64,000 bases of DNA. It comes from Plantibacter sp. ME-Dv--P-122b (GTDB lineage Bacteria; Actinomycetota; Actinomycetes; Actinomycetales; Microbacteriaceae). The notes below the pieces were generated by a model. It was not told the origin of the DNA and made no database searches. It worked only from the letters and a program-made list of their open reading frames with translations. The stretch spans positions 434,001 through 498,000 of the forward strand of contig NZ_JARVSC010000003.1 of assembly GCF_030209375.1 (NCBI RefSeq), in the 5' to 3' direction. Positions 24,727 to 44,062 of the stretch are shown here, in pieces. Position 1 is the stretch's first letter. The number at the start of each line of letters is the position of its first letter. Position numbers and translations under genes: made by a program.

Positions 24727-25545
24727 ATGACGCTCGTCTCCACCGCCGCGCTCCTCGACACGCAGCGCGCCGTGCTCGCCTTCAACGTCATCCAGCTCGA
24801 ACACGGCGAGGCGATCCTCCGCGGCGCCGAATTCGCGGGCCGGGGCGTCATCCTGCAGGTGTCCGAGAACGCGGCGAACTACCACGGCGGCCTCGCACCG
24901 ATCGGGCTCGCGAGCCTGGAGCTCGCCCGCGAGGCCGGCACCGCGACCGCCGTCCACCTCGACCATGCCGAGGATGAGACGCTCGTCGAGGAGGCGGTCC
25001 GGCTCGGATTCACCTCGGTCATGTTCGACGCGGCGACCCTCCCCGACGAGGAGAACCGCGAACGCACCGCAGCGGTCGCCCGCGCGGCTCAAGCTCAGGG
25101 CGTGTGGGTCGAGGCCGAGTTGGGGGCCATCGGCGGCAAGGGTGGAGCGCACACCCCTGGTGTCCGGACCGACCCTGGCGAGGCAGCGGCGTTCGTCGCC
25201 GGCACCGGCGTCGACGGCCTCGCGGTCGCGGTCGGCAGCTCGCACGCGATGACCTCCCGGAGCGCGACCCTCGACTTCGGGCTCATCCGGGAACTCGCCG
25301 CAGCCGTCCCTGTCCCGCTCGTCCTGCACGGCTCGAGCGGTGTGAGCGACGAGGACCTCGTGCGGGCGGTGGACGCGGGCATGCGCAAGATCAACATCTC
25401 GACGCACATCAACGGCGTCTTCACCCGAGCCGTCCGTGAGCGCCTCGAAGCGGATCCGTCCCTCGTCGACCCGCGGAAGTACCTCGGCCCGGCGCGCGAC
25501 GCGGTCGCCGCCGAGGTCGCGCGGCTCCTCACCCTCGTTGCGTAG
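24727..25545 (+). CDS. Class II fructose/tagatose-bisphosphate aldolase-like protein (KbaY/GatY type)
   Basis: The 272-residue zinc aldolase has HLDH at 77-80 (Asp79 the likely catalytic acid/base, His80 a zinc ligand), SVMFDAATLP, AELGAIGGKGG, the His ligand region LHGSSGV and KINISTHIN binding phosphate. Its short length and FNVIQLEHGEAIL start resemble GatY/KbaY and sugar-specific homologues rather than glycolytic FbaA. GAGAGG seven bases before ATG 24727 is a good ribosome site. In its setting it should cleave a ketohexose 1,6-bisphosphate made by the PfkB at 20397. Confidence 0.88.
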   Translation: MTLVSTAALLDTQRAVLAFNVIQLEHGEAILRGAEFAGRGVILQVSENAANYHGGLAPIGLASLELAREAGTATAVHLDHAEDETLVEEAVRLGFTSVMFDAATLPDEENRERTAAVARAAQAQGVWVEAELGAIGGKGGAHTPGVRTDPGEAAAFVAGTGVDGLAVAVGSSHAMTSRSATLDFGLIRELAAAVPVPLVLHGSSGVSDEDLVRAVDAGMRKINISTHINGVFTRAVRERLEADPSLVDPRKYLGPARDAVAAEVARLLTLVA

Positions 25546-26006: not shown

Positions 26007-27002
26007 CTAGCCGCACTTGGACTGGTAGACGGCATCCTTCGCGTCGCCGTCGACGTTGTCCTTCGTGATGATGGTGAAGCCGGTCTCGATCTTGGCCTCG
26101 ACCTTGTCACCGTTCAGTGCGGCGATCGCCTGGGCGACGCCGTCCTTGCCGATGGTGGCCGGCTCCTGAGCGACGAGCGCCTGGACGGTGCCCTCCTTCA
26201 GCTGCTTGACCTGGGCGGGACCCGCGTCGAACCCGACGATGGTGACCGAGTCCTCCTTGCCGGCCTGCTTGACTCCGGTCGCGGAACCTTCGGCCGCGAA
26301 CAGGTTCGCTGCGAAGATGCCCACGATGTCGGGGTCCTTCTGGAGCGCCGCGGTCACGATCTCGGCGGCCGTGGACGGCTCGTTGTGGCTGTACTGCACG
26401 CCGAGGTCGGTGAACTTGTCATCGCCCTTGACCGCTTCCTGGAAGCCCTCGGCACGGGCGTCCGTGGTCGAGATGCCGGGGTCGACCGAGACCACGAGGA
26501 CCTTGCCGCCCTCGGGGTGCGCTGCCTTGATCGCGTCGAACGCCGCAGCGCCGCCGCCCTTGTTGTCGCTCGAGATCTGCGAGACCGCGAACGACGGGTC
26601 GTCGACGGTGGTGTCGACGAGGACGACCTTGATGCCCGCGTCGGCCGCAGCCTTGAGCGGGGCCTCCATGGCCTTCACATCGGTCGGGGCGACGAGGATC
26701 GCGTCCGGCTTCGAAGCGACGACCGAGTCGACGAGCGGCTTCTGCAGCGTCGGGTCGAACTTCTCCGGACCCTGGGTCGTGACCGTCGCGCCGGCATCCT
26801 TCGCCGCCGATTCGATACCGCACTGCATCGAGATGTAGAACTCGTCGCCTGCGACGCCCTGGATGAACGCGATCTTGTAGCCGTCGGAACCTGCGCCGGC
26901 GCTGCTGCCGCCCGAGCTCGCGCCACCGGAACACCCGGTGAGCATGAGGCCTGCCGACGCGCCGAGCGCGAGGACTCCGAGAACTGACTTCTTCCACTTC
27001 AT
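26007..27002 (-). CDS. Sugar ABC transporter substrate-binding lipoprotein (RbsB/FrcB type)
   Basis: The 331-residue protein has a lipoprotein signal (MKWKKSVLGVLALGASAGLM, then LTGC with Cys24) and a Ser/Gly linker. The mature part has the pattern of pentose/hexose-binding type I proteins: YKIAFIQGVAGDEFYISM, DAILVAPTDVKAMEAPL, VVLVDTTVDD, GKVLVVSVDPGIST, GIFAANLFAAEG and VTIVGFDAGP. It captures the sugar outside the membrane for the permease at 27074. It is the last gene of the operon, with a 71-base gap to the permease. The ligand is unknown. Confidence 0.92.
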   Translation of the reverse strand: MKWKKSVLGVLALGASAGLMLTGCSGGASSGGSSAGAGSDGYKIAFIQGVAGDEFYISMQCGIESAAKDAGATVTTQGPEKFDPTLQKPLVDSVVASKPDAILVAPTDVKAMEAPLKAAADAGIKVVLVDTTVDDPSFAVSQISSDNKGGGAAAFDAIKAAHPEGGKVLVVSVDPGISTTDARAEGFQEAVKGDDKFTDLGVQYSHNEPSTAAEIVTAALQKDPDIVGIFAANLFAAEGSATGVKQAGKEDSVTIVGFDAGPAQVKQLKEGTVQALVAQEPATIGKDGVAQAIAALNGDKVEAKIETGFTIITKDNVDGDAKDAVYQSKCG

Positions 27003-27073: not shown

Positions 27074-28159
27074 TTATTTCTTCTTCCTGCTGACGAGGGC
27101 TCGCCAGAAGCTCGTGGATCCACCGCGGGCTGCGGAGGAACGGCGGACCTGGTCGACGTAGACGGCCAGGATGAGGACGGCACCGACGGCGACCTGCTGC
27201 CAGAAGGGCTGCACGCCGGTGATGACGAAGCCGTTCTGGAGGACGGCCGGGATGAACAGGCCGACGACGGTGCCGAAGATCGTCCCGTAGCCACCGAACA
27301 GTGAGGTGCCACCGATGACGACCGCGGCGATGACGTTCAGGTTCGTCTGCGACTGACCGGCGATCGCGGTGGTGCCGAACTGCGACAGCGACAGGATGCC
27401 GGCGAGACCCGCGAGACCACCCGAGATCGCGTAGATGCGGATGAGGTGACGGTCGACCTTCACGCCGACGCGTCGTGCCGCCTCCTCGCTCGATCCGACC
27501 GCGTAGGTGTACAGGCCGAACTTCGTCTTGTGGAGGACGAGCGCACCGATGATGACGACGACGAGGGCGATGACCGAGATGATCGGGACCGCACCGAAGA
27601 CGTTGCCGTACCCGATCGAGTCGGTGAGGACCGACGGCACCTCGCGGATGTCGACACCGCCGGTGAGGATCTGGGCGAGGCCGAGCGCCATGCCGAGGCT
27701 ACCGAGGGTGACGATCAGCGGCGGCACCTTCGCCTTGGAGATGAGGATGCCGTTGAACGTGCCCCACAGGATGCCGACGCCGATCGACACGATGATGCCG
27801 ACGATCGCGGTCCCCCAGTCGTCGCCACCCATGGCCCGCATCGTCGTCGCGGACACGACGCCCGAGAAGACGAGGACGGATCCGATCGAGAGGTCGATGC
27901 CGGAGGTGATGATGACGTAGGTCATGCCGACGCCGAGCACCGCGAGGATCGAGGCGTTCTGCACGACGAGCCGCAGGTTGGACAGCTGCGCGAAGGTGTC
28001 GGGCGCGATCGCGGAGAAGATCGCGATGACGACGAGGAGGACGATGAAGATCTGGAAGGCCTGGGCCTTGAAGAGCTTCCTGATCGGGGTCTCCCGATCC
28101 TTGGCCGTCTCGATGGCGGTCGTCTCCGGCCCCATCTCGGCCTGCTTCACCGCGCTCAT
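27074..28159 (-). CDS. Sugar ABC transporter permease (RbsC/FrcC type)
   Basis: The 361-residue integral membrane protein has about nine to ten hydrophobic segments. It carries hallmark sequences of the RbsC family: GVGMTYVIITSGIDLSIGSV, GTFNGILISKAKVPPLIVTL, GGTSLFGGYGTIFGTVVG. The cytoplasmic N-terminus (about 1-33) is longer than usual. It overlaps the ATPase stop by an ATGA junction, so the two are coupled. It forms the membrane channel of the importer, probably as a homodimer. Confidence 0.92.
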   Translation of the reverse strand: MSAVKQAEMGPETTAIETAKDRETPIRKLFKAQAFQIFIVLLVVIAIFSAIAPDTFAQLSNLRLVVQNASILAVLGVGMTYVIITSGIDLSIGSVLVFSGVVSATTMRAMGGDDWGTAIVGIIVSIGVGILWGTFNGILISKAKVPPLIVTLGSLGMALGLAQILTGGVDIREVPSVLTDSIGYGNVFGAVPIISVIALVVVIIGALVLHKTKFGLYTYAVGSSEEAARRVGVKVDRHLIRIYAISGGLAGLAGILSLSQFGTTAIAGQSQTNLNVIAAVVIGGTSLFGGYGTIFGTVVGLFIPAVLQNGFVITGVQPFWQQVAVGAVLILAVYVDQVRRSSAARGGSTSFWRALVSRKKK

Positions 28160-28917
28160 GCGACGTTCCTCGTGCTGGCACCGGTCATGAGACCGACGAG
28201 TTCTTCCATGTTCGTGTCCTTCGTGTCGACCGTCGCCGCGCGGTGGCCGAGCCGCAGCACCTGCACGCGGTCGGACACCTCCATGACGTGCGGCATCGAG
28301 TGGCTGATGAAGACGACCGCGATGCCCTTGTCGCGCACCCGGCGGATCGTCTCGAGGACGTTCTTCGTCTGGCGGACGCCGAGGGCGGCCGTCGGTTCGT
28401 CGAGGAAGACGACCTTGTTGGCCCAGTGCACCGCGCGGGCGATGGCGATCGCCTGGCGCTGTCCACCGGACATCGCGCCGACCGGGTCGGTGAGCGAGCG
28501 GACGGTCGCGCCGAGTTCGTCGAAGGCGTGACGCGACTGCTTGCTCATCTCCTTGACGTTCATGAGGCCGAGCAGGCCGCCGAGGCCGGGCCGCATGATC
28601 TCGCGGCCGAGATAGACGTTCTGCACGGGGTCGAGGTGGGGCGCGAGGGCGAGGTCCTGGTAGACCGTCTCGATGCCGAGCGCGCTCGACTGCATGGGCG
28701 AGGTGAGGGTGATCGGTTCGCCTTCGAACTTGATAACGCCGCTGTCGACCGCGAGGTTGCCGGAGAGGGCCTTGACCAGGGTGGACTTGCCCGCACCGTT
28801 GTCGCCGATGAGGGCGGTGACCTCGCCGGGGTAGACCTCGAAGTCCGCTTCGTCGAGGGCGCGGACGTGCCCGAACTGCCGGGTGAGGCCTCTGGCCTCC
28901 AAGACGGGAGTCGTCAT
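28156..28917 (-). CDS. Sugar ABC transporter ATP-binding protein, single-domain (FrcA type)
   Basis: The 253-residue ATPase has Walker A GDNGAGKST at 38-46, Q-loop Gln87 (VYQDLAL), signature MSGGQRQ at 149-155, Walker B VVFLDEP with Asp173/Glu174, and switch His in ISHSM. Only one nucleotide-binding domain is present; RbsA-type partners of this permease class usually have two fused domains of about 500 residues. Single-domain versions such as FrcA of the frcBCAK fructose system exist, so two copies should act as a homodimer. ATG 28917 follows an AAAGGAACGAG-type ribosome site. Confidence 0.92.
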   Translation of the reverse strand: MTTPVLEARGLTRQFGHVRALDEADFEVYPGEVTALIGDNGAGKSTLVKALSGNLAVDSGVIKFEGEPITLTSPMQSSALGIETVYQDLALAPHLDPVQNVYLGREIMRPGLGGLLGLMNVKEMSKQSRHAFDELGATVRSLTDPVGAMSGGQRQAIAIARAVHWANKVVFLDEPTAALGVRQTKNVLETIRRVRDKGIAVVFISHSMPHVMEVSDRVQVLRLGHRAATVDTKDTNMEELVGLMTGASTRNVA

Positions 28918-29047
28918 GTCGTTCTCGTTCCTTTCCAGCCGGCCCCGGTGGCCGGGTCCGGCGTGTGGTGGCTGTCGTACCGCCGGTCGGGGCGGTGGCG
29001 TGTGGTGAGCTGCTGCGTGATCGTGGGTCCTGCGTCGAGGGGTGGCG

Positions 29048-30148
29048 TCATCGGATGCCTCCCGATGCGAGGGTCGCCGGCCAGCCCGCACCGGGGCCGG
29101 CGGCGAGCACGGTTGCCGAGCCGCTGACGGTCCAGGGCCCGAACCCGGCCGGGACGGCGAAGACCTCGCCGGCCGAGAAGTCCACGGCGTCGGTCCCGGC
29201 GTCAGCCTCGGGGACCAGTGCGCCGGCGCCGGTGAGTGCGAGGGCGACCGAGAATCCCGCCTCCACGGATGCGCTGCCGTCGGTGCTGGGCGCCACGGCG
29301 ACGAGCTGGAAGTAGGGGTCGGCGGCCGCGGGCAACAGCGACACCGGCGCGTCCGTCCGGGCGTCGAGGTCGTGCAGGACGACGAGGTGTTCGATCTCGG
29401 ACTGCGGGAGCGCCTTCGTCGACACCGCACCCATCACGGTCTCGAATCCGAGGCCGAGGTGGGACTCGTCGCGCGTCGAGGTCGTGACCGACCACTCGAG
29501 GAGGATGGAGAGGTCGGTCGGTTCCTGCACCTCCGCGAGGAAGATGCCGCCGTCGATCGCGTGGGCCGTGCCGGCCGGGACGAGGATGCCCATGCCGCGC
29601 TCGACGACGATCCGGTTCATGTGCGACAGCATCCACTCGCTGTCCTGGGCGTCGCGACGACGGTCGAGTTCGTCGGGGTCGACATCCTCGCTCCATCCGA
29701 GGTGGACGGCCGAACCGGGCTCGGCGTCGAGGATGAACCAGGCCTCCGTCTTGCCGTAGGCGCAGTCGAGGTGGGAGGCGGCGAACGCCCGGTCGGGGTG
29801 GACGTGGACGGGGAGCCGCTGACGAGCGTCGAGCAGCTTGACGAGGATGCCGGTGTCGGCGGCGTCGGTGCCGTGGTCCTGTCCCGCACCGGTCCATTGC
29901 TCCGGGTCGGCCGCGACGAGGTCGCGGAGCAGGACGCCGTCGATGGTGCGGGCGAGGCCGATGGCACCGCCGGGCTCCTGGTCGGCGCGGCTCACGGTCG
30001 CTCCGAGCCACTCCTCCGGCTGGAACTCGCTCTGCTGCTCGATGCCGCGCAGGCTCGCGATGCGGTCGCCGCCGCGGTAGAAGTGCTCGATGAGGTTCGG
30101 TGCGAGTCGCGTCGGCTGGGCGAGCCTCGTGGGCTGGGTCGTGCTCAT
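29048..30148 (-). CDS. Class I mannose-6-phosphate isomerase-like protein
   Basis: The 366-residue cupin protein shows the type I phosphomannose isomerase zinc site: VHVHPD (two His), GKTEAWFIL (Glu), and a later His in PAGTAHAIDGGIFLAEVQEPTD. Type I enzymes interconvert mannose 6-phosphate and fructose 6-phosphate, but homologues in sugar operons take other substrates. It lies between lacI-3 (ATGA overlap at 30145-30148) and the ABC ATPase (130-base gap), so it probably isomerises the imported and phosphorylated sugar. The C-terminal 80 residues form a second cupin-like part. Confidence 0.85.
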   Translation of the reverse strand: MSTTQPTRLAQPTRLAPNLIEHFYRGGDRIASLRGIEQQSEFQPEEWLGATVSRADQEPGGAIGLARTIDGVLLRDLVAADPEQWTGAGQDHGTDAADTGILVKLLDARQRLPVHVHPDRAFAASHLDCAYGKTEAWFILDAEPGSAVHLGWSEDVDPDELDRRRDAQDSEWMLSHMNRIVVERGMGILVPAGTAHAIDGGIFLAEVQEPTDLSILLEWSVTTSTRDESHLGLGFETVMGAVSTKALPQSEIEHLVVLHDLDARTDAPVSLLPAAADPYFQLVAVAPSTDGSASVEAGFSVALALTGAGALVPEADAGTDAVDFSAGEVFAVPAGFGPWTVSGSATVLAAGPGAGWPATLASGGIR

Positions 30149-31206
30149 GCTGCTGGTCCTCCGACCATGCTCGTGGTGGACGCGGTGCGCGCGTCCACGG
30201 TGTGACGCTGCGCCGGGCCGGGGATCTCTCCGGAACCACGCGACACCAGGGAGGTCGGGACGACCCACTCGCGCGGCTCGTCGGCCGGCGATTCGCGCAG
30301 TTCGAGGAGTCGCTCGATCGCGGCGGTCCCGATGACGAACGGATCCTGGTTGATGCAGCTGACGGCCGGTCGCAGGACGTCCGCGAGGGTGAAGTCGCCG
30401 AACGCGATGTGCGCCGTCCCCTCACGCCCGATGCGGTGCAGCGAGGTCGTCAGACCGATCGCCGCCTTCGCGTTGGACGCGAAGAAGGCGGTGGGCGGGT
30501 CCTCGAGTCCGAGCAGGCGCTCCGTCTCGGCGGCGTAGTCGAGTGAGCCGTCGATGGTCCAGGAGACGAGCGACGGGTCGAGGTCGATGCCGGCCTCGGC
30601 GAGGACGTCGGTGTACCCGTGGTAGCGCCGACGGATGGTGAGGAAGCGCTCGTCCCGGTCGTAGAAGGCGATGCGGGTGTGGCCGAGCTCGACGAACTGG
30701 CGGATCGCGAGCTGGGTGGCGGCGTAGTCGTCGACCACGACGCTGTCGAAGGCGGCGAGCGGACGGTCGACGGCCACGACGGGCGTCACGTTCCGGAACG
30801 CCTCGAGGTAGGGAAGCTCCGCGGCGACCGGGGCGATGATGACGCCGGCGACCTGGTGGCCGGCGATGAACCCGGTGAGCTGGTCGCGCTCGCGCCCCTC
30901 GTCGAGCCCGGTGCTCGCCACGAGGACGCTCAGGCCCTCCTTGAGCGCGCGGGCCTCGATGGCGCTCACGAGCGACGCGAAGAACGGGTCGGCGAGTGAA
31001 TCGATGAGGACGCCGATCGCGCCACCGGTGCCGGACTTCAGTGAGCGGGCGGCCGTGTTGGGCACGTACCCGAGGCGATCGATCGCCTCGAGCACGCGGC
31101 TTCGGGTCTCGGGGTGCACGGACGGTTCGCCGTTCACCACCCGCGAGACGGTCTTGATGCTGACGCCGGACTGCGCAGCCACATCCTTGATCCCGGGCGG
31201 CCGCAT
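30145..31206 (-). CDS. LacI-family regulator LacI-3, first gene of the ABC importer operon
   Basis: The 353-residue LacI protein starts MRPPGIKDVAAQSGVSIKTV, has the hinge YVPNTAARSLKSG, and the full effector domain (GVLIDSLADPFFASLV, VAVDRPLAAFDSVVVDD, IAFGDFTLADVLRPAVS). The C-terminus has an extra 25-residue tail. ATG 31206 fits the family start; an in-frame ATG at 31356 would add 50 Arg/Pro-rich residues and lies inside an operator. GACAACGTTGTC operators at 31342-31446 lie in its promoter, implying autoregulation and control of the importer. Confidence 0.9.
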   Translation of the reverse strand: MRPPGIKDVAAQSGVSIKTVSRVVNGEPSVHPETRSRVLEAIDRLGYVPNTAARSLKSGTGGAIGVLIDSLADPFFASLVSAIEARALKEGLSVLVASTGLDEGRERDQLTGFIAGHQVAGVIIAPVAAELPYLEAFRNVTPVVAVDRPLAAFDSVVVDDYAATQLAIRQFVELGHTRIAFYDRDERFLTIRRRYHGYTDVLAEAGIDLDPSLVSWTIDGSLDYAAETERLLGLEDPPTAFFASNAKAAIGLTTSLHRIGREGTAHIAFGDFTLADVLRPAVSCINQDPFVIGTAAIERLLELRESPADEPREWVVPTSLVSRGSGEIPGPAQRHTVDARTASTTSMVGGPAA

Positions 31207-31538
31207 CAGCGGGTCCGCCTGACGGGAAGCGGAACGGGTCCGACGTCGCAGCCGGTCCGGAGCGACGGGACGTGCGCACGTGTCCGGATCGGACTGGTCG
31301 CGGTGATCGCGGGGTTGCAGGTGCCCATGGGCTCCACCTCCTGACAGCGTTGTCATCGGTCGGGGTGGTGCAGCTGCAGAACCCCGTCGTTCCTTCGTGC
31401 GCCTATACTGACCGCAGACCGACAACGTTGTCAAGCAACGTTGTCTGAAAGAGATCAAATTCATTTGGAACTCGCATCGAAGAGGCGTTTAGACCCCTCG
31501 GATGTGGGTCGCCACCCCGGAATCATCGAGGAGTCAGC
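31207..31538. promoter_or_regulatory. Intergenic control region between lacI-3 and the kinase-HAD fusion
   Basis: This 332-base gene-free stretch holds three LacI-type sites and a divergent promoter zone. Site 1 is TGACAGCGTTGTCA at 31342-31355, site 2 is CGACAACGTTGTCA at 31420-31433, and site 3 is the half-degenerate AAGCAACGTTGTCTG at 31433-31447. On the minus strand TTGACA (31429-31434) overlaps site 2 and could be the -35 box of the lacI-3 operon, with AGTATA about 19 bases downstream. On the plus strand TATACT (31403-31408) and TTTGGA/TTTAGA (about 31464-31494) are possible promoter elements. The remaining part, 31207-31340, shows nothing clear. Confidence 0.7.
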
Positions 31539-32747
31539 GTGATCGTCGTCGTCGCAGGAGCAGCCGGAAGCGGGAAGACCACGCTCGGACGCGAGCTGGC
31601 CAGAGCCCTTCGACTCCCACTCCTGGACCTCGACACCATCACGAATCCGCTGCTCGACGGTCTCGGTGCGGTGGCGGATCCCGATGGCGACGAACCGCTC
31701 CACTGGAACGACCCGAAGCTGCGCCCGACCATGCGCCCGGCGCGGTACGCGGCCCTCCGAGCGGTCCTCGCCGATCAGCGCGACAGCGGCGTCGGCGCCG
31801 TGCTCGTCGCCCCCTTCACCGCGGAGCTCCGTGGCGGCGCCGAATGGGACGCGCTCGTCGAGGCGGCCGGGGTCGTCCCGAAGGTCGTCTGGCTGCACAC
31901 CGATGCCGCCACGCTCGCAGCTCGCCGAGCCGAACGCGGCGCCGAGCGGGACACGCACATCGTTGACCCGTCGACCGACACCCCACCCACCATCGAGCAC
32001 CTGTCGATTGAAGCGGCGTTGTCCACCTCGCAGCAGCTCGCCGCCGTCCAACGCGCGCTCGGCCTCGGACGGACCATCGAGGCCTCCGCACCGATCTTCG
32101 ACCAGGTCTTCGCCGCCGGGCTCTTCGACCTCGACGGGACGCTCATCGACTCGACGCCGGCCGTGAACCGGTCGTGGGCGCAGCTCGCCCGCGAATACGG
32201 TCTCGAGGGCGACCTGCTCGCCGCGGGACACGGGCAGCCCGCTGCCCAGGTGCTCGCCGCGATCTTCCCGCCCGAGCAGGTCGCCGAAGCGCTCGCACGG
32301 ATCATCGAGATCGAGGCCGACGAGGTCGCCGACGTCATCGCCCTCCCGGGGGCGGCGGAGGCGCTGGCAGCGCTCGGTGACGACGCGAAGGCGATCGTCA
32401 CGAGTGGCACGAGACTCATCGCCGGCAACCGGATCGCGGCCGCCGGACTCGTGCGGCCGGAGGTCGTCGTGACCTTCGACGACGTCACGAAGGGCAAGCC
32501 GGACCCCGAACCGTTCCTGCTCGGCCGCACCCGGCTGGGCATGGAGTCGCAGCCGTGCGTCGTGTTCGAGGACGCACCGGCCGGGCTCGCCGCGGCGCGC
32601 GCGGCCGGCTGCTGGACGGTCGGCATCGCCGGCACGCACGAGGCGCACGAACTCGATGCGGACCTCGTCATCGACGGCCTCTTCCAACTGCGGCTCGAGC
32701 CGGTCGCCGCGGGTGGATTCCGACTCGCCCCGGCAGCGCTGGGCTGA
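31539..32747 (+). CDS. Fusion of P-loop sugar kinase-like domain and HAD-family sugar phosphatase
   Basis: The 402-residue protein joins two enzymes. Residues 1 to about 180 form a P-loop kinase-like domain (Walker A GAAGSGKT at 7-14) similar in layout to gluconate/shikimate kinases. Residues about 190-400 form a HAD subfamily IA phosphatase with all motifs: DLDGT (Asp197, Asp199), motif II VTSGT (Ser289), Lys320 in KGKPDPEPF, and FEDAPAG (Glu344, Asp345). Kinase and phosphatase in one chain could set the phosphorylation state of the same sugar. GTG 31539 follows GAGGAG by five bases. It is divergent from lacI-3 and shares its operator region. Confidence 0.85.
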   Translation: MIVVVAGAAGSGKTTLGRELARALRLPLLDLDTITNPLLDGLGAVADPDGDEPLHWNDPKLRPTMRPARYAALRAVLADQRDSGVGAVLVAPFTAELRGGAEWDALVEAAGVVPKVVWLHTDAATLAARRAERGAERDTHIVDPSTDTPPTIEHLSIEAALSTSQQLAAVQRALGLGRTIEASAPIFDQVFAAGLFDLDGTLIDSTPAVNRSWAQLAREYGLEGDLLAAGHGQPAAQVLAAIFPPEQVAEALARIIEIEADEVADVIALPGAAEALAALGDDAKAIVTSGTRLIAGNRIAAAGLVRPEVVVTFDDVTKGKPDPEPFLLGRTRLGMESQPCVVFEDAPAGLAAARAAGCWTVGIAGTHEAHELDADLVIDGLFQLRLEPVAAGGFRLAPAALG

Positions 32748-32759
32748 GCGGCACCCCGA

Positions 32760-32865
32760 TCCCTGAGCCTGTCGAAGAACCGGAGGCTGACGAAACTGAT
32801 GCAGCCTCCTCCGAACACGCTCCTCGGCAACCGCGGAGACTCGTTCCCTGAGCCTGTCGAAGGGC
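32760..32865. repeat. Two REP-like elements after the kinase-HAD gene
   Basis: Copies CCCTGAGCCTGTCGAAGAAC (32761-32780) and CCCTGAGCCTGTCGAAGGGC (32846-32865) lie in the same orientation in the 246-base gap before the next gene. Both belong to the family that recurs at 33.7-35.7 kb and 40.2 kb. Confidence 0.8.
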
Positions 32866-33614: not shown

Positions 33615-33946
33615 GGTCCAGCCACGCGTGGGGATGCGGACCCTGGCGAGCACCTCGACCGGCTTGACGACCGCGTCACCGTCGTTCCCTGAGCCTGTCG
33701 AAGGGCACCCCGAGCAACCTTCCCCACCGCACCACGACAAGCTCCGCGACCGCGTCTCCGCCGTTCCCTGAGCTTGTCGAAGGGCCCACGAGCAACCTCC
33801 CCACCGCACCTCGACAACGGCGGAACCTCGCTCCCTGAGCCTGTCGAAGGGCGCCCCGAGCGAACGTCACCTGTCGGATAAATACCCAGATCAGGGGCGT
33901 ATTCACTGCACGTTCCAATGTCAGTGGTCCGTGTTTGGATGGATCC
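33615..33946. repeat. Gene-free stretch with three REP-like elements
   Basis: This 332-base region contains REP-like copies at 33687-33706, about 33767-33785 (variant GAGCTTGTCG) and 33833-33852, all in the CCCTGAGCCTGTCGAAGGGC orientation, roughly 70-80 bases apart. The last 90 bases (33855-33946) include a less GC-rich stretch (ATAAATACCCAGATCAGGGG) that may hold the promoter of the HNH gene. No coding frame is convincing. Confidence 0.75.
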
Positions 33947-35494
33947 ATGACCAGCACCGCACCAAGCCCGCTCGCCGCCGCCGCGGCCGGGTTCAATGCC
34001 GTGTGGCAGGGCGCGCTCGACGCGATCCGTCCAGGTTCCGGTGTCGCGGAGCAGCTCGAGAACATGAACGACGAGGCGATCCTCCGGGTCCTCGACGAAC
34101 TCGGTGCCGTGCAGCATGCGGTCGAGGTCCTCGCGGCCCGCGTCGTCGGCGCGATCGCGTTGCGGCCGTCGCCCAGTGGCCGCGGCGGCACGCTCGTGCG
34201 CGCCGCCGGCTACGCCAACCCGGGCGTCATGGTCGCCGAACGGTGGCGCGTCTCCCGCGCCCGCGGCGCGGCGATCGCCGAGGTCGGTGCCGCCATCACC
34301 CAACCGCGCGGGCTGCTCGGCGAGTTGGAGGAATGCCCGTTCCCCGAGATCGCCACGGCGCTTGAACCGGCACCCCATTTCAACGCAACAACCGAACCCA
34401 CCGCCGATCTCGACTCCACCACCGCCCAGGCCGACCGACCCGGGGAGCCCTCGTCGTCCACCACACCGGATGGTGACGCACCGGCTGCCCTCGGCAGCCC
34501 CCGATCACCCCTGAGCGTCGATGGTGCTGCGGTCATCGTCCGCGAGCTCCGCAACGCGGGCCGCATCTGCACCAAACCCGAACTGCAAGCCGCGTCGGTC
34601 ATCGCCATCGAGCACGCCGCCCATGCACCCCTGCAGGACGTCACCCGCATCGCGAAACTCGTCCGCACCCGCCTCGACCAAGACGGCCGCGAACCCCGCG
34701 ACGAACTCCTCCGCCGAGCAGAACGCTGCACCATCCACGAACTCCCCACCGGCATGACCCTCCTCCGCGCCGAACTCGCCCCCGAAAGCGCCGCCTTCAT
34801 CCGCGCCGGCCTCGACGCCCTCATCGCAGCCACCACCCGCCGTCCCCACTTCATCCACCCCGACACGGCCGACCCCGCCGACCAACCCGACGGATCAGGC
34901 ACCCCGATGCCCGACGGACCGTCGCTCATCCCCATCGACCGACGACGCGCCATCGCCCTCACCGAGACCTTCCGACACCTAGCCGGCTGCAGCGCCGCCG
35001 CCACCGAACTCACCCCCGTCACCGTCATCATCCGCACCGACCACGACACCCTGCAAACCGGCCTCGGCACCGCCACCATCGACGGCATCGACGAACCCAT
35101 CGGCCCTGGCGCCCTCCGCCGCCTCGCCGCCGACGCCAACCTCATCCCCATGATCCTCAACGGCCCATCCCAAGTCCTCGACCTCGGCACCAGCACCCGC
35201 CTCTTCACCCGCGGACAGAAACTCGCCCTCGCCGAACGCGACGGCGGCTGCGCCTGGACCGGCTGCACCCACCCACCCTCCTTCACCGAAGCCCACCACA
35301 TCCGATGGTGGTCCCAAGGCGGACCCACCAACCTCGACAACGGGGTACTCCTCTGCCCCTTCCACCACCACCGCATCCACGACGACCACTGGACCATCAC
35401 CATCCAGAACGGCATCCCCTGGTTCATCCCACCCAGCCACATCGACCGACACCAAACCCCCATCCGAGGCGGACGAATCCACCTCGCCGCCTGA
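33947..35494 (+). CDS. DUF222 domain HNH endonuclease
   Basis: This 515-residue protein belongs to the family of actinobacterial DUF222-HNH proteins. An N-terminal helical DUF222 region lies at about 10-360 with a Pro/Thr-rich insertion (about 140-185). The C-terminal HNH motif comprises the metal-binding CAWTGC, EAHHIRWWSQGG, and DNGVLLCPFHHHRIHDDHW. Such genes are multicopy in many Microbacteriaceae and Mycobacteria; whether they act as mobile-element nucleases or in defence is unknown. The second half of the gene is extremely C-rich and G-poor on the coding strand. It is flanked on both sides by REP-like repeats. TTG 33935 is an alternative start. Confidence 0.87.
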   Translation: MTSTAPSPLAAAAAGFNAVWQGALDAIRPGSGVAEQLENMNDEAILRVLDELGAVQHAVEVLAARVVGAIALRPSPSGRGGTLVRAAGYANPGVMVAERWRVSRARGAAIAEVGAAITQPRGLLGELEECPFPEIATALEPAPHFNATTEPTADLDSTTAQADRPGEPSSSTTPDGDAPAALGSPRSPLSVDGAAVIVRELRNAGRICTKPELQAASVIAIEHAAHAPLQDVTRIAKLVRTRLDQDGREPRDELLRRAERCTIHELPTGMTLLRAELAPESAAFIRAGLDALIAATTRRPHFIHPDTADPADQPDGSGTPMPDGPSLIPIDRRRAIALTETFRHLAGCSAAATELTPVTVIIRTDHDTLQTGLGTATIDGIDEPIGPGALRRLAADANLIPMILNGPSQVLDLGTSTRLFTRGQKLALAERDGGCAWTGCTHPPSFTEAHHIRWWSQGGPTNLDNGVLLCPFHHHRIHDDHWTITIQNGIPWFIPPSHIDRHQTPIRGGRIHLAA

Positions 35495-35821: not shown

Positions 35822-37315
35822 TCACCCCGCGGCGACGACCTCTTCCACCGCCACCCGCGCACCGACGGCCACAAGCCGCGCACGCGCCGCGATGAACGCC
35901 TCGCGCAACCGCGCGTCCGATCCGAGGTCGCCGAACACGACCTCCAGGTCCAGGAAGGCCCCAGGGCGCTCCGCCTCCTGCGCGACCGCCGCCTGCAACT
36001 CGGCCAACCGGCGGTCGACCGGGGCAAGCTCCCGCCCGTCGTCACCGACACCCTCGATGAACCGGCTCCACGCCGCGAGCACGAGCGCCGAGCGGGCGAT
36101 CCCGCCGCCGGTCCGCAACTGCTCACGGACGACCGGGAGCAGGAACTTCGGGATGCGCTCCGAACCGTCGACGATCTGCCGCGCCAAGGTGTCCTTGATC
36201 GCCTCACTGCCGAACCGGCGCATCAGCTCCGCGCAGTACGCGTCGATGTCGATGCCCGGCACCGGCGCGAGCGTCGGCCTCGCCTCCTCGTGCATGTACC
36301 CGAGGAGGAACCGCGAGAACAGCTCGTCGCGGCAGACGTCGTGCACGTATGTCTCCCCCGCCAGCAGCCCGAGGTAGCTCATCGCCTGGTGGGAGGCGTT
36401 CAACAGCCGGAGCTTCATCAGCTCGTAGGGCTCGACGTCCTCCACGAGCTGCACGCCCACCTGCTCGTACGGCGGACGACCGTCGGAGAAGTCGTCCTCG
36501 AGCACCCACTGCTCGAAGGACTCCGAGAGCACCGGCCAGCGGTCGTCGATCCCGAACCGATCCGAGACGAACGCGCGCTGCTCGTCCGTCGTCGCCGGCG
36601 TGATGCGGTCCACCATCGAGTTCGGAAACCGCACCTCCGCGGCGATCCAGGCGGCGAGCGCCGGGTCGATCCGCTCGGCGAAGGCGAGGATCGCCGTCCG
36701 GGCGACGTGTCCGTTGCCCTGGATGTTGTCGCACGACATGACCGTGAACGGAACGGCACCGGCGTCGCGTCGGGCACGGAGGGCCGCCGTGATGAACCCG
36801 AGCGGGCTCTGCGGCAGCGCGCCCGCCGGCAGCCCGTCGAGGTCCGCGAGCGTCGCACCGTCGCTCGGCTCGAACGCGCCGGTCGCATCGTTCACCCCGT
36901 AGCCGCCCTCGGTGATCGTGAGCGACACGATCCGCGTCGACGGATCGCTCACCCGTGCGAGGACCGCTTCCGGGTCGTCGGGAGCGAACAGGTACTCGAC
37001 GATCGACCCGACGACACGCGCCTCGACCTCGCCGTCCGGACTCGTCGTCACGAGCGTGTAGAGCCGGTCCTGAGCACCGAGTGCGTCCCGCATGGCGGCG
37101 TCACCGGCCAGCGTGCCGACGCCGACGAGCCCCCAGGACGCGTGCTCGTCCCCGGGGAGCCCGAGCACGCGGTCGACGAACATCGCCCCGTGCGCGCGGT
37201 GGAAGGCGCCGACCCCGAAGTGGACGATGCCGGGTCGGATGGCCGAGCGGTCGTAGGCGGGGACGGCCACCTGCTCGTCGAGATCGGTGAGGGTGGCGTC
37301 GGAGAGCTGGGTCAT
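35822..37315 (-). CDS. Mannitol/D-arabinitol 2-dehydrogenase (long-chain polyol dehydrogenase)
   Basis: The 497-residue protein is a typical polyol-specific long-chain dehydrogenase. It has an N-terminal Rossmann domain with IVHFGVGAFHRAHGA at about 29-43 and a C-terminal all-helical domain with the catalytic K-x4-N-x2-H motif at about 300-308 (KLRLLNASHQ). It oxidises mannitol to fructose, arabinitol to xylulose or a related uronate alcohol with NAD. It lies downstream of the FrcK-like kinase with a 101-base gap and is controlled by the LacI operators at 38227-38276. Length and motifs are complete. Confidence 0.92.
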   Translation of the reverse strand: MTQLSDATLTDLDEQVAVPAYDRSAIRPGIVHFGVGAFHRAHGAMFVDRVLGLPGDEHASWGLVGVGTLAGDAAMRDALGAQDRLYTLVTTSPDGEVEARVVGSIVEYLFAPDDPEAVLARVSDPSTRIVSLTITEGGYGVNDATGAFEPSDGATLADLDGLPAGALPQSPLGFITAALRARRDAGAVPFTVMSCDNIQGNGHVARTAILAFAERIDPALAAWIAAEVRFPNSMVDRITPATTDEQRAFVSDRFGIDDRWPVLSESFEQWVLEDDFSDGRPPYEQVGVQLVEDVEPYELMKLRLLNASHQAMSYLGLLAGETYVHDVCRDELFSRFLLGYMHEEARPTLAPVPGIDIDAYCAELMRRFGSEAIKDTLARQIVDGSERIPKFLLPVVREQLRTGGGIARSALVLAAWSRFIEGVGDDGRELAPVDRRLAELQAAVAQEAERPGAFLDLEVVFGDLGSDARLREAFIAARARLVAVGARVAVEEVVAAG

Positions 37316-37416: not shown

Positions 37417-38133
37417 TCAGGCGCCGTGGGTGGATTCGGTCTCCACCGGCGTCGACGCGTCGAGCGTGACGATCCGGGTGGCGCGTTGCTTGGTCGCGTC
37501 GACCAGGCGGGCGTTCGGCTCGTCGACGCCGAGCACCCAGGCTTCAGCCTCCTCGCGCGGGTGGCCGTGACCGAGGCGTCGGGCGATGAGTCGGTCGCGG
37601 CGGACCTCGTCGTCCACGTCGACGTACCAGGACTCGTCGAGTTGCGCGGCGACACCCTGCCAGCCGTGGTCGTCGAAGAGCAGGTAGTTGCCCTCCGTGA
37701 TCACGAGCGGCACCTCGGGGCGGACGAGGACGGCACTGCCGATCGACGCCTCGAGCGAGCGGTCGAACCGGGGTGCATAGATCGGTGTGCCCGGCGACTC
37801 GGCGGTGCGTCCGGCACGGGCGAGGCGGAACAACAGCGCGATGTAGCCGTCGACGTCGAAGGTGTCGGGCGCGCCCTTGCGGTCGCGTCGCCCGAGGCGG
37901 ACGAGCTCGGCGTTGTCGAGGTGGAAGCCGTCCATCCCGACGATGACCGCCTGATCACCGAGTGCGGCGGCGAGCGCGTCACTCACGGTGGACTTGCCCG
38001 CACCGGGCGCCCCGACGATCCCGAGGATCCGCCGGGACCCGGTGGCGGCGAGCGAGCGGGCGTGATCGATGAGGCCGTCGAGGTCGACGAAGCCAGCGAG
38101 GCCGGTCCCAGCGGTGGTCGTGATGCCGCTCAT
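37417..38133 (-). CDS. P-loop nucleoside/fructose kinase-like protein (FrcK/YggC family)
   Basis: The 238-residue protein has a uridine kinase-like P-loop fold: Walker A GAPGAGKST at 41-49, GMDGFHLDN with substrate-binding Asp/His, RKGAPDTFDVDGY, YAPRFDRS, and ITEGNYLLFDD. Members of this family are found with sugar transporters (FrcK in the frcBCAK fructose operon) and are assumed to phosphorylate ketoses. Here it is followed by a polyol dehydrogenase and could phosphorylate the ketose that enzyme makes. ATG 38133 was chosen because an AGGAGAGG-type site precedes it. Its promoter is the TTGACA-N17-TACCGT sequence at 38192-38220. Confidence 0.82.
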   Translation of the reverse strand: MSGITTTAGTGLAGFVDLDGLIDHARSLAATGSRRILGIVGAPGAGKSTVSDALAAALGDQAVIVGMDGFHLDNAELVRLGRRDRKGAPDTFDVDGYIALLFRLARAGRTAESPGTPIYAPRFDRSLEASIGSAVLVRPEVPLVITEGNYLLFDDHGWQGVAAQLDESWYVDVDDEVRRDRLIARRLGHGHPREEAEAWVLGVDEPNARLVDATKQRATRIVTLDASTPVETESTHGA

Positions 38134-38191
38134 CGTGATGCCTGACCTCTCCTGGGAGCCGACCGGTCGCGGTCGCGCCGTCGCCCGACTC

Positions 38192-38299
38192 ACGGTAGGT
38201 CCAGTGGATGCGTGTGTCAACACCAAATGTCACCGGTGTCATGATCTGCTGGTGAAATCCATGTCACGGGTGACATGGCCGTTGTTCCGTGGTTATGAT
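38192..38299. promoter_or_regulatory. Divergent promoters with two LacI operators (module D)
   Basis: Leftward: TTGACA (38215-38220 on the minus strand), 17-base spacer, TACCGT (38192-38197), reading into the kinase. Rightward: TATGAT (38294-38299) with a -35 (GTGACA/TGACAT) inside the right-hand operator, reading into the SDR. Operators: ATGTCACCGGTGTCAT at 38227-38242 and ATGTCACGGGTGACAT at 38261-38276, 34 bp centre to centre. That is the same spacing as the pair at 15305-15354. LacI-2 at 39120 is the expected repressor. Confidence 0.78.
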
Positions 38300-38354
38300 G
38301 CTCCCGACCCGGTGCACCGACGCACGGGCCTCATCACGTCGATCGGACCACCTC

Positions 38355-39083
38355 ATGACTGACTTCAACGGCCGCACCATCCTCGTCACGGGAGCGAGCG
38401 GCGGCATCGGCGGCGCGACCGTCCGCCACCTCGTCGCAGCGGGCGCGCAGGTGATCGCCTCCGGTCGCAACGTCGAGCACCTCGACGCCATCGCCGCCGA
38501 GACGGGCGCCGAACCGCTGCCCTTCGACCTCACCTCGGAGGACAGCGTCCGCGACGCGATCGAGGGACGCGACATCTGGGGCGTCGTGAACTCCGGCGGT
38601 TGGGGCGGCGAGATCGCCTCCCCGCAGGAGACCGACATCGACGTGTTCGACAAGGTCATCAGCATCAACGCGCGCGGGTCGCTGCTCGTCACCAAGTACG
38701 CGTCTCGCGAGATGATCCGCCAGGAACGCGGCGGTGCGATCGTGAACGTCTCCAGCCAGGCGAGCCTGGTCGCCCTCTCCGGCCACATCTCCTACGGCTC
38801 ATCGAAGGCCGCACTCGACAACATCACGCGGGTCTCGGCCCTGGAACTCGGGAAGTACGGCATCCGCGTCAACGCCGTCAACCCGACCGTCGTGATGACG
38901 CCGATGTCCGCCTGGTACTGGGGTCGCCCCGACATCGAGGGCCCCTTCCTCGAGGCGATGCCGCTCGGTAAGTGGGCCACCGAGGACGACATCGCCGGCC
39001 CGATCACCTTCCTGCTGAGCGACGCCGCCGGCATGATCTCCGGCGTCTCGCTGCCGATCGACGGCGGCTACACCGCACGCTGA
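38355..39083 (+). CDS. L-xylulose reductase-like SDR (DCXR type)
   Basis: The 242-residue short-chain dehydrogenase has TGASGGIG at 12-19, VNSGG in place of NNAG, Ser133/134, Tyr147 and Lys151. The segment RVNAVNPTVVMTPM followed by LGKWATEDD is close to the dicarbonyl/L-xylulose reductase pattern (VNPTVVMT). DCXR enzymes interconvert xylitol and L-xylulose or reduce dicarbonyls with NADPH; SGRN after strand 2 fits NADP. It is divergent from the kinase/arabinitol dehydrogenase pair, so the module as a whole suits pentitol or hexitol interconversion. Confidence 0.87.
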   Translation: MTDFNGRTILVTGASGGIGGATVRHLVAAGAQVIASGRNVEHLDAIAAETGAEPLPFDLTSEDSVRDAIEGRDIWGVVNSGGWGGEIASPQETDIDVFDKVISINARGSLLVTKYASREMIRQERGGAIVNVSSQASLVALSGHISYGSSKAALDNITRVSALELGKYGIRVNAVNPTVVMTPMSAWYWGRPDIEGPFLEAMPLGKWATEDDIAGPITFLLSDAAGMISGVSLPIDGGYTAR

Positions 39084-39119: not shown

Positions 39120-40103
39120 ATGGCCACGATGCGCCAGATCGCCGCAGCCGCCGGCGTGAGCGCGAAGACGGTCTCGCGGGTCTTCAACGACGACCCGCAC
39201 GTCCTCCCGGAGACGCGAGAACGGGTCGAGTCGATCATGCGGGAGCTCGACTACGTGCCGAACTCCCTCGCGACAGCGTTCCGCTCAGGCCGCCCGTCGG
39301 TCATCGGGGTCGCCGTCCCCGACATCGTCGACCCGTTCTTCGCCGAGATCGCGCGTGCGGTGGAGCGGACGGCGCGCGATCACGACATGTCGACACTCGT
39401 GACGAGCCTCGGCGACGACCCGGACCGCGAGCGCGCGGTCCTCGAGCCGATGCTCCGGCGTCAGCTGGCCGGGGTGGTGCTCGCGCCGATCGGCGACGAC
39501 CAGAGCTCGCTGGCCGCGTGGGCGTCGCGGACGCCGTTCGTGTTCGTCGACCGCGCGCCGGGAGGCCTCACGGCCGACGCCTTCACGCAGGACGACTTCG
39601 GTGGGGCGTTCGCGGCGACGACCCACCTCGTCGAGCACGGCCACGACCGGATCGCCTTCGTCGGCGACCAACTGGCCCTGCCGACGACCGCCGAGCGGCT
39701 GCGCGGGTACCGGGCGGCACTCACCGAAGCCGGGCTGCCCGCCGACGAGGAGCTCATCGTCCTCGGCGCGGCGACCCGCGAGGGCGCGGCGCGTGCGCTG
39801 GCGACGGTCGGCTCGCGGGCGACGGCCTTGTTCTCGTCGAACGCCGTCTGCACGATGGCGTTGCTGCCCGCACTCGCCGAGCCGCCGCTCCCACTGGTCG
39901 CATTCGGCGACTTCCCCTTGGCCGAGCTCCTACGACCGTCGGTGTCCGTGATCACGCAGGACCCGGAGGCCCTCGGTCGGCTCGCTGCGCAACGCATCAT
40001 CGACCGCCTCGACCGCCCCGACGGGCGATACCGCCGGAGCACGGTGCTCCCGGTGCACCTCGTCGAGCGCGATTCGTGTCGGGCCGCGTCCGCGGTGCGC
40101 TGA
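39120..40103 (+). CDS. LacI-family regulator LacI-2
   Basis: The 327-residue protein begins MATMRQIAAAAGVSAKTVSR and is a close paralogue of LacI-1: the stretch from TVSRVFNDDPHVLPET to YVPN is nearly the same, while the effector domains differ more. It follows the SDR after 36 bases, with GGGAGG nine bases before ATG 39120. Its operators are most probably those at 38227-38276, and because the reading helix matches LacI-1, cross-binding to the module A operators is likely. It ends in VERDSCRAASAVR. Confidence 0.9.
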   Translation: MATMRQIAAAAGVSAKTVSRVFNDDPHVLPETRERVESIMRELDYVPNSLATAFRSGRPSVIGVAVPDIVDPFFAEIARAVERTARDHDMSTLVTSLGDDPDRERAVLEPMLRRQLAGVVLAPIGDDQSSLAAWASRTPFVFVDRAPGGLTADAFTQDDFGGAFAATTHLVEHGHDRIAFVGDQLALPTTAERLRGYRAALTEAGLPADEELIVLGAATREGAARALATVGSRATALFSSNAVCTMALLPALAEPPLPLVAFGDFPLAELLRPSVSVITQDPEALGRLAAQRIIDRLDRPDGRYRRSTVLPVHLVERDSCRAASAVR

Positions 40104-41919: not shown

Positions 41920-43098
41920 TCACAGCGCGATCGCGCGACCCTCCTCGTGGGAGCGGATCGCCGCACGGTAGATGTCGTGGGTGAGCGCCGCCTCCTCGGG
42001 CCGCGCCGCGCCGAACCGGTCGCCGAGCGAGCCGTGCCGCTCGGCGAGGAACACGGCCCACATCTGGAGGATCGTGTCGGAGAACCCGGACTCGAAGTTC
42101 GGGCCGGTCACCGTCGGCCACACCGACTGGCTGCCCGCGTCCAGCTGCTGCCACACCTGCTCCCGCCCGCCACCCGGGATGTCCCGCACCGCGAACACCT
42201 CGACGAGCTTCGGGTTCTTCGTGCTGAAGCGGACCCCGCCGTCGAGACCGATCGCCTCGAACTCCCACGTGTTCTTCTGCCCGGGATCGATGCGCTTCGT
42301 CTCGGTCGTCAGCGGGAAGCGGACACCGTCGTGGGTCGCCCAGCTGTGCAACACGGCGTTGTCCCAGGTGTCGCACGGCACGAGCGAACCGTCGGGGCCC
42401 GGGCGCTCGGTGACGATGTTCTGCAGCACCCCGTACACACTCTCGGGTGCCCAACCGAGCCGCAACGGCACATGCCAGGTGTGCATCCCGAGGTCGTTCA
42501 TCACGCCGGCCTCACCGCAGAACTGCGTCTGGCGCTTCCAGTTGATCTGCTTGCCCCGATCGATGTCACTCGAGTGCAGGAAGCTGTTGCGCGCCTCGAC
42601 GATCGTGCCGAGCGCCCCGGACCGGACGTAGTCGATCGCCAGCTGCGCACCCGGGAAGAACGGCATCTCACTCGAGCACCGGACGAAGCTCTCGGGGTGC
42701 TCGGCCATCGCCGCGAGGACGGACTGCGCCGCAGCGGCATCCATGCCGAAGGGCTTCTCCGCCAGCAGACTCTTCCCGGCCCGGATGACGTCGGTGTAGA
42801 TCTGCTCGTGGAGGTCGTGACGGACGGCCACGTAGACGACGTCGACCGACGGGTCGGCGAGCAGCTCGTGGTAGTCCGTGGTCTTCGTGACGACGGTGTC
42901 GATCTCGTCGAACCAGTCGAGCGCCGCCGGGTTGATGTCGCAGACGGCCGTCAGTCGCGGTCGCACCGGGTGGTCGATGAGTGCCGGCCACCGCTGGATG
43001 GCGGCGGCGATCTCGCGCCCCATGAGTCCGCCGCCGATGATCGCGACGTTGACGCGCTCCGCCGTCGCCCGGTCGGCCGTCACCTGGTCGGCGCTCAT
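41920..43098 (-). CDS. Gfo/Idh/MocA-family oxidoreductase
   Basis: The 392-residue NAD(P)-dependent sugar oxidoreductase has an N-terminal Rossmann fold (AIIGGGLMG at 19-27), VYVAVRHDLHEQI, the family motif AEKPFG at 113-118, and the C-terminal alpha/beta domain with GVMNDLGMHTWHVP, whose Asp and His complete the active site. Family members oxidise inositols, glucose or other cyclic and phosphorylated sugars. It follows the class I aldolase with an ATGA overlap (43095-43098). With the divergent PfkB kinase it should form an oxidation, phosphorylation and cleavage route. Confidence 0.9.
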   Translation of the reverse strand: MSADQVTADRATAERVNVAIIGGGLMGREIAAAIQRWPALIDHPVRPRLTAVCDINPAALDWFDEIDTVVTKTTDYHELLADPSVDVVYVAVRHDLHEQIYTDVIRAGKSLLAEKPFGMDAAAAQSVLAAMAEHPESFVRCSSEMPFFPGAQLAIDYVRSGALGTIVEARNSFLHSSDIDRGKQINWKRQTQFCGEAGVMNDLGMHTWHVPLRLGWAPESVYGVLQNIVTERPGPDGSLVPCDTWDNAVLHSWATHDGVRFPLTTETKRIDPGQKNTWEFEAIGLDGGVRFSTKNPKLVEVFAVRDIPGGGREQVWQQLDAGSQSVWPTVTGPNFESGFSDTILQMWAVFLAERHGSLGDRFGAARPEEAALTHDIYRAAIRSHEEGRAIAL

Positions 43099-43937
43099 GC
43101 GCGAGCCGCCTCGAGGATCGCGAGGCCGGCATCGGCGTCGGCGCCGTCGTGCAGCACCGCCATGAGTGCCGCGGTGATGGCGGCCGGGTGCTCGTGCTGG
43201 ATGATGTTGCGGCCGTAGACGATGCCGCTGACCCCGGCGTCGAGGACGGCGACCGTGCGCTCCAGCAGCGTCCGGTCGTCGACGCGACCGCCGCCGCGGA
43301 CGAGGACGGGGATGTCACCGGCGATCTGAACGACACGTGCGTACTCGGTGATGTCGCTGCTCGGGTCCGCCTTGATGAGGTCGGCACCCAGTTCGACCGC
43401 CTGGCGCACGAGGGTGACGATCTTCTCGATGTCGCCGTCGACCTGATACCCGCCGGCCGTCGTGTTGTCCTGCATGACGAGCGGTTCGATCATGAGCGGC
43501 ATCCCGTACCGGGTCGCTTCGCGACGCAGGGCCATGATCGAGCGGATGTTCGCCTCGCGGACCTCGGGGTGGTCGGGGAGCTGCATGAGGTTGACACACA
43601 CGGCGACGGCGTCCAGCCGGACCGCCTCCTCGATCGCGTGCGGCACGTGGTGGCTGTAGAGGATCGAGTCGAGGGGGTTGCCGTAGACGTTCGCGACGTC
43701 CGTCCGCAGGACGAGCGCCGGCTTGTCCTTGCCGGGGACCTGCTGCAGGAGACGGGCCTGGCCGAGGGTCAGCTGGACGGCGTCCGGGCCCGCGGCGACG
43801 AGCGTGCGGACGACCTCGCCCATGTCCTCGATGCCGGTGATGAACGAACGCTCGCCGAAGAACCCGTGGTCGACGGCGACGTCGAGCGCGCGACCGGATC
43901 GGGCGTTGAAGAGACGATTGAGGCGGTACAGCGACAT
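43095..43937 (-). CDS. DhnA/LsrF-type class I aldolase
   Basis: The 280-residue TIM-barrel protein matches the DhnA family of class I fructose-bisphosphate/2-amino-3,7-dideoxy-heptulosonate aldolases. It has LDVAVDHGFFGE near residue 20, NLMQLPDHPEVREA, MPLMIEPLVMQDN, ELGADLIKADPSSD with the probable Schiff-base Lys, and VLVRGGGRVDD with phosphate binding at SGIVYGRNI. LsrF handles phospho-AI-2 and DhnA handles fructose bisphosphate; the substrate here is open. ATG 43937 follows AGGAG. Its promoter contains a perfect AGACAACGTTGTCT palindrome. Confidence 0.87.
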   Translation of the reverse strand: MSLYRLNRLFNARSGRALDVAVDHGFFGERSFITGIEDMGEVVRTLVAAGPDAVQLTLGQARLLQQVPGKDKPALVLRTDVANVYGNPLDSILYSHHVPHAIEEAVRLDAVAVCVNLMQLPDHPEVREANIRSIMALRREATRYGMPLMIEPLVMQDNTTAGGYQVDGDIEKIVTLVRQAVELGADLIKADPSSDITEYARVVQIAGDIPVLVRGGGRVDDRTLLERTVAVLDAGVSGIVYGRNIIQHEHPAAITAALMAVLHDGADADAGLAILEAARA

Positions 43938-44006
43938 TGCGGCGGCTCCTGATCGTGACGGGGAGGGTTTCCGAATCGTCCCTCGGTGTGTCACAGTAGT
44001 GGCCTG

Positions 44007-44020
44007 AGACAACGTTGTCT
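44007..44020. promoter_or_regulatory. LacI-type operator between the aldolase and PfkB genes
   Basis: AGACAACGTTGTCT is a perfect 14-bp palindrome with a central CG. It lies in the 125-base divergent region between the aldolase start (43937) and the kinase start (44063). Its 12-base core GACAACGTTGTC is the same as that of site 2 in front of lacI-3 at 31421-31432. Confidence 0.8.
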
Positions 44021-44062
44021 AGCTTGCGCCGGGCCAGGCCCGGGGCGAAGAACGGAGGGTCC

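Follow-up and report, generated by a model that had tools for sequence, protein, structure and literature searches.

A Kinase Domain and a HAD Phosphatase Domain Joined in One Conserved Chain Within an Actinobacterial Sugar/Polyol Cluster

Introduction

Why should a bacterium encode a kinase and a phosphatase as a single polypeptide, and do so in the midst of genes for the uptake and breakdown of sugars? The question is raised by one reading frame in Plantibacter sp. ME-Dv--P-122b, part of a 64,000-nucleotide stretch of DNA that we analyzed whole and refer to as “the window.” A preliminary description of this frame had seen in it a P-loop kinase fused to a complete HAD phosphatase, had likened the pair to 6-phosphofructo-2-kinase/fructose-2,6-bisphosphatase (PFKFB), and had suggested that it tunes or exchanges a phosphate on an imported sugar or else makes a signaling sugar phosphate.

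If both halves are active, the protein would be a compact example, from bacterial catabolism, of a kinase and its antagonist phosphatase working as one polypeptide. The cluster exists in fused, separate-gene and kinase-only versions, which provide natural controls, and the locus points to a widespread, apparently uncharacterized sugar/polyol pathway of actinobacteria for which a regulator and an operator can be proposed.

Two Complete Domains in One Chain

The gene starts with GTG and runs for 402 residues in a single frame. Its parts are the following.

31528 to 31533, plus strand: ribosome-binding site GAGGAG, read from the sequence, 5 nt 5' of the GTG
31539 to 32747, plus strand: kinase–HAD fusion protein, 402 aa (ORF call, Pfam, orthologues)
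31539 to 32081, plus strand: N-terminal AAA_33 kinase domain, residues 1–181 (Pfam, invariant columns, model, Foldseek)
32112 to 32744, plus strand: C-terminal HAD-IA phosphatase domain, residues 192–402 (Pfam, NCBIfam, nearest solved relative 2qlt)

Both domains exceed their Pfam gathering cut-offs, AAA_33 at residues 3–139 (E 1.9e-13; 51.3 bits against a cut-off of 27) and HAD_2 at residues 195–362 (E 4.6e-22). The two-domain reading of the preliminary description thus holds, and so do the good ribosome site that it reported and its Walker A motif at residues 7–14, which reads GAAGSGKT. The kinase half has further key residues in D30/D32, the substrate-side DxD, and in the lid (R129/R133/R137-D138), and the other half has all four HAD motifs (D197/D199, S289, K320, E344/D345). 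Judged by sequence, then, the N-terminus is a complete small-molecule kinase domain and the C-terminus a complete HAD-IA domain of the sugar-phosphatase type.

The function of HAD-IA phosphatases is difficult to predict by sequence. Ours passes TIGR01509 (62.7 bits, cut-off 29.4), matches PRK11587, the profile of Escherichia coli YfbT, at E 5.8e-46 with 156.6 bits, which is below the curated cut-off of 282, and also matches NF046057, that of Acinetobacter MtlD (E 4.7e-12). The kinase half reaches 18.0 bits with TIGR01313 (gluconokinase GntK/IdnK), below the curated cut-off of 113.75. Foldseek placed the kinase domain nearest to 2rhm, a putative kinase, and to gluconokinases, at about 16–21% identity; the full chain, through its HAD, came nearest to 2qlt, the yeast glycerol-3-phosphatase GPP (34% identity). 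AlphaFold gave confident models, with mean pLDDT values of 87.9 for the full-length fusion and 88.6 for the kinase domain alone, but the placement of the two domains relative to each other is unsure, since the pTM was 0.67 for the full chain vs. 0.84 for the kinase.

A Fusion Kept Intact

Is the joining real? The full-length fusion is present in all seven Plantibacter genomes at 93–98% amino acid identity (orthologues on three Plantibacter contigs are 92–97% identical) and in other genera at 47–68%. A sample of 398 Microbacteriaceae genomes, with the best four candidates scored in each, yielded 10 full-length fusions beyond Plantibacter, six of them in g12 and one each in g84, g74, g8 and g69, and two other families contribute one genome each, G749 (locus L092) and G867 (L144). 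Some orthologue matches contain a stop codon; the reading frames stay open for 395 aa, and the stop appears internal because the match extends beyond the C-terminal one.

Between Plantibacter species, dN/dS is 0.06–0.11 for the kinase and 0.06–0.10 for the HAD, or about 0.07 for both; that is, the two halves are under purifying selection of equal strength. With the orthologues intact, the frame kept across genera and dN/dS low, we rejected a frameshift or assembly artifact, a danger that the preliminary description had itself foreseen. It had also feared a Walker A motif with no real kinase around it, and this, too, we rejected: across 15 fused orthologues, G7, G12, K13, D30, D32, R69, Y70, R129, R133, R137 and D138 are invariant, as is APFT at 91–94, and the kinase set is still fully conserved in an alignment of 20 rows that includes stand-alone kinases. 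The HAD residues that had been named as catalytic (D197, D199, S289, K320, E344 and D345) are invariant in the same 15 proteins.

Three genomes show unusual architectures. In G288 (L090:9079-10416), kinase and HAD are separated by about 44 residues more than in the other orthologues, so that a long linker is evidently tolerated. G788 and G973 have long open frames around the kinase, of 1046 and 901 aa, which are candidate fusions; the kinase match of G973 (L143:8668-11174) sits between genes for a LacD-like aldolase and a tryptophan 2,3-dioxygenase, and this kinase may be truncated, since only query residues 2–122 align.

The Surrounding Gene Cluster

The preliminary description had placed the gene in a sugar context, opposite lacI-3 and the ManA/ABC genes, and the neighborhood bears it out.

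12834 to 13763, minus strand: LacD-like aldolase; relatives often adjoin the kinase in other genera
13843 to 15252, minus strand: FGGY sugar kinase; relatives often adjoin the kinase in other genera
24727 to 25545: class II FBP-type aldolase
26007 to 27002, minus strand: importer sugar-binding protein (profiles; closest 5dkv, E 2.9e-63)
27074 to 28159, minus strand: ABC importer permease, ribose type (profile matches)
28156 to 28919, minus strand: ATPase of the ABC importer (a longer frame is open to 29430)
29048 to 30268, minus strand: ManA-like protein, mannose-6-phosphate isomerase family (TIGR00218 at E 2.5e-12, below cut-off; 1qwr)
30145 to 31206, minus strand: LacI3 regulator, its gene divergent from that of the fusion (a longer frame is open to 31464; the HTH domain led us to place the start at 31206)
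35822 to 37315, minus strand: polyol dehydrogenase, mannitol 2-dehydrogenase family (profiles; solved relatives)
37417 to 38226, minus strand: PRK09270-type P-loop kinase (fructokinase-like 3c8u)
38289 to 39083, plus strand: SDR dehydrogenase, which travels with the kinase (profiles; locus comparison)
39120 to 40103, plus strand: LacI4 regulator (profile matches)
43095 to 44012, minus strand: second DeoC/LacD-family aldolase
44060 to 45139, plus strand: PfkB kinase, divergent from the second DeoC/LacD-family aldolase

The window additionally encodes further FGGY and PfkB kinases and a Gfo/Idh dehydrogenase. Much of this company is kept elsewhere: among 28 kinase loci, the importer permease is found at 25, the binding protein at 24, the SDR at 22, the LacD-like aldolase at 18 and, at 17 each, the polyol dehydrogenase and the FGGY kinase. 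The genes for the LacD-like aldolase and the FGGY kinase directly adjoin the kinase in several genomes. The binding protein is closest among solved structures to 5dkv, which we take to have been solved with tagatose, and the dehydrogenase is closest to mannitol 2-dehydrogenases, likenesses that narrow the substrate only to ketoses or hexitols.

Viewed more broadly, positions 11757–46187 make up a catabolic island for sugars and polyols, about 34 kb in length. It encodes several LacI and DeoR regulators, three or more FGGY kinases, two PfkB kinases and two aldolases of the DeoC/LacD family, along with the class II FBP-type aldolase, an Aldolase_II protein and a DUF4432 protein. Synteny with g12 and G200 extends over much of the island.

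Operators and Regulation

Three predicted operators accompany these genes.

31342 to 31355: LacI-type operator TGACAGCGTTGTCA, lacI3/fusion intergenic region
31420 to 31433: LacI-type operator CGACAACGTTGTCA, lacI3/fusion intergenic region
44007 to 44020: third operator AGACAACGTTGTCT, between the DeoC/LacD-family aldolase (minus strand) and the PfkB kinase (plus strand)

A search of the whole genome for the pattern TGACAACGTTGTCA, allowing up to two mismatches, gave four sites (the reversed pattern, as a control, gave one site per strand): two are in the intergenic region between lacI3 and the kinase–HAD gene, one is at 44007 and one is on contig 14. A pair of operators 76–88 bp apart lies 5' of the kinase gene at Plantibacter, g12, G283 and G200 loci, and from their position we infer that LacI3 would bind them. 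This pattern makes it very probable that the fusion gene is sugar-inducible and belongs to a catabolic regulon. G069, which has no close LacI3, instead has a TGACACCGGTGTCA palindrome near the kinase–HAD start (L091:9476).

The same palindrome is seen at L082:4798, L085:4553, L091:1997, L091:9476 and L091:11522, near SDR/PRK09270-kinase and importer genes, and it is possibly the operator of LacI4.

Fused, Separate and Kinase-Only Versions

The preliminary description had called for a count of fused against split homologues, and we find that nature has tried three arrangements. Besides the fusions, the same type of cluster occurs with a kinase of this subfamily and no HAD (G200, G550, G816, G054 and others), and two genomes (G004 and G087) have a kinase gene and a HAD gene adjoining and convergent inside the cluster; G176 has both, on different contigs. 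The kinase is, in other words, the constant element of the cluster.

How did the HAD come to join it? In the kinase tree, the fused forms make up one clade that includes the kinase of G200, and a fused-only clade excluding G200 was rejected (p-AU 0.008), from which it follows that G200 probably lost its HAD, a lack that was judged among the best four candidates scored per genome and is not firm genome-wide. For the HAD, 95% of bootstrap trees unite the fused domains in a single group, and the clustered but separate ones (G004, G087 and G176) fall within the stand-alone HADs, the sampled ones of which have other neighbors, resembling dCTP deaminase, carotenoid desaturase and SbcCD (named by eye). 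The AU test rejected a single clade of fused plus clustered-separate HADs, and with it one ancestral clustered HAD that was later fused, at a p-AU of 0.0045 that is somewhat optimistic because the groups were named after a first tree. Since the separate clustered HADs thus sit on a different branch, the same kind of HAD joined the kinase cluster on two or more occasions, in one case by fusion and in another as a neighboring gene. No other evidence speaks as strongly as this repeated recruitment for the two activities belonging together; at the same time, the HAD looks accessory, given the kinase-only clusters and its probable loss from G200.

What Might the Two Domains Do?

The reading that we favor, to which we give about even credence, is a bifunctional catabolic enzyme under LacI control: a kinase for a sugar or polyol intermediate joined to a phosphatase that clears side products of the same pathway. 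We infer the kinase and phosphatase activities, their substrates and the proofreading role, the last from the accessory distribution of the HAD, its sole basis. The AAA_33 domain would use ATP to phosphorylate a hydroxyl group on an intermediate derived from a sugar or polyol. Candidates are a ketose and the C3 aldehyde formed as the LacD-like aldolase cleaves a ketose-1-phosphate. In one scheme, the FGGY kinase would make the ketose-1-phosphate, the aldolase would convert it to DHAP and a C3 aldehyde, and the fusion kinase would phosphorylate the aldehyde; in another, the fusion kinase would add the second phosphate of a ketose bisphosphate.

The GPP/YfbT-like HAD may in turn hydrolyze phosphorylated sugars or polyols of that pathway. 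Since G200 and other genomes keep the cluster with no HAD in it, the most plausible task of the HAD would be to clear side products or excess phosphate esters made by the fusion kinase and the other kinases of the cluster, as a form of local proofreading or overflow control, and the fusion would be expressed together with the importer and aldolases under LacI control. As had been suggested, the fusion may also tune or exchange a phosphate on the sugar that is imported. A fuller version of our reading, in which a promiscuous sugar-catabolic kinase carries its proofreading phosphatase in cis, the pairing having evolved twice, in an undescribed actinobacterial sugar/polyol pathway, seems to us tentative and somewhat unlikely as a whole.

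Two other schemes are less likely than the removal of side products or excess esters. The domains could catalyze two obligatory, sequential steps that relocate a phosphate, the kinase adding one at one carbon and the HAD removing one elsewhere or from a bisphosphate. Consecutive steps are often joined by fusions, and other kinases of the cluster (FGGY, PfkB, PRK09270) could provide the first phosphate, but the kinase-only clusters of G200, G550 and G816 have otherwise the same gene content, which argues that the HAD is not obligatory unless another phosphatase substitutes for it; relocation strikes us as unlikely. Quite unlikely is a switch of the PFKFB kind, with domains that make and destroy a signaling sugar phosphate such as an inducer of LacI3. 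Its appeal lies in the predicted opposing activities of a single chain and in a gene divergent from a LacI regulator with conserved operators between; yet the kinase is kept without an adjacent phosphatase in the same type of cluster (G200, G550 and others), as one would expect of a catabolic step more than of a synthase/hydrolase switch, and neither a regulatory domain nor the PFKFB families appear among the Pfam matches. We found nothing positive in favor of the signaling sugar phosphate of the preliminary description.

Might one domain be catalytically silent, a sensor or a scaffold for the other? A precedent is a plant FAD synthetase fused to an inactivated pyrophosphatase (PMC9678776), but with the catalytic residues of both domains all invariant in the 15 fused orthologues, and with selection equally strong on both halves, we consider this very unlikely. 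Repair of nucleic acid ends by a 5'-kinase and 3'-phosphatase of the Pnkp type, suggested by the order of P-loop kinase then HAD, is scarcely credible for a HAD of the capped sugar-phosphatase type that has no PNK3P match and a kinase found in a sugar cluster in every genus examined.

Relation to Known Systems

In T4 Pnkp, a P-loop kinase at the N-terminus and a HAD phosphatase at the C-terminus share one chain, which is the domain order of our fusion. It acts, however, on nucleic acid ends and has another type of HAD, whereas the fusion has a HAD_2/HAD-IA domain and a sugar-catabolic cluster; membership was rejected on domains, Pfam giving HAD_2 in place of PNK3P. PFKFB combines a P-loop kinase with a histidine phosphatase in a sugar context. 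The likeness that the preliminary description drew is sound as to a P-loop kinase plus a phosphatase in a sugar context, but the fusion carries a HAD where PFKFB has a histidine phosphatase, and we rejected membership, with neither 6PF2K nor a histidine-phosphatase domain among the Pfam matches. Nor is PFKFB the nearest precedent: a P-loop kinase plus a HAD is the layout of T4 Pnkp, and plants have AtFMN/FHy, a riboflavin kinase fused to an FMN hydrolase (PMC9678776).

AtFMN/FHy shares with our protein a kinase and an opposing phosphatase in one polypeptide, and it differs in being eukaryotic, in belonging to flavin metabolism and in its unrelated kinase family. Acinetobacter MtlD, a mannitol-1-phosphate dehydrogenase/phosphatase (PMC6291793), joins a related HAD (NF046057; 7ocn-7ocu) to an enzyme of a polyol pathway, but there, the partner is a dehydrogenase and the role is biosynthetic. 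The closest relatives of the HAD half, E. coli YfbT (PRK11587) and yeast GPP1 (2qlt), are themselves stand-alone; gluconokinase GntK/IdnK and 2rhm are the nearest folds of the kinase half, yet TIGR01313 falls far below its cut-off. The fusion has the layout of a bifunctional kinase/phosphatase, with both catalytic domains complete in one conserved chain, and we found no description of an AAA_33 and HAD fusion in the open-access literature. Kinase–phosphatase fusions are already known; what appears to be new is this variant, in which an AAA_33 kinase is paired with a HAD-IA phosphatase in a sugar-catabolic setting.

Other Features Near the Fusion Gene

The fusion gene and the polyol dehydrogenase are near each other in most relatives. 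In the window, a 519-aa ORF (33935–35494) with an HNH-like C-terminal motif (DUF222/HNH, by eye) lies between them. A CCTGAGCCTGTCGAAG-like repeat follows the fusion gene on its 3' side, at 32764–32778 and 32850–32864; it also appears translated in several nearby intergenic ORFs and looks like a dispersed intergenic repeat.
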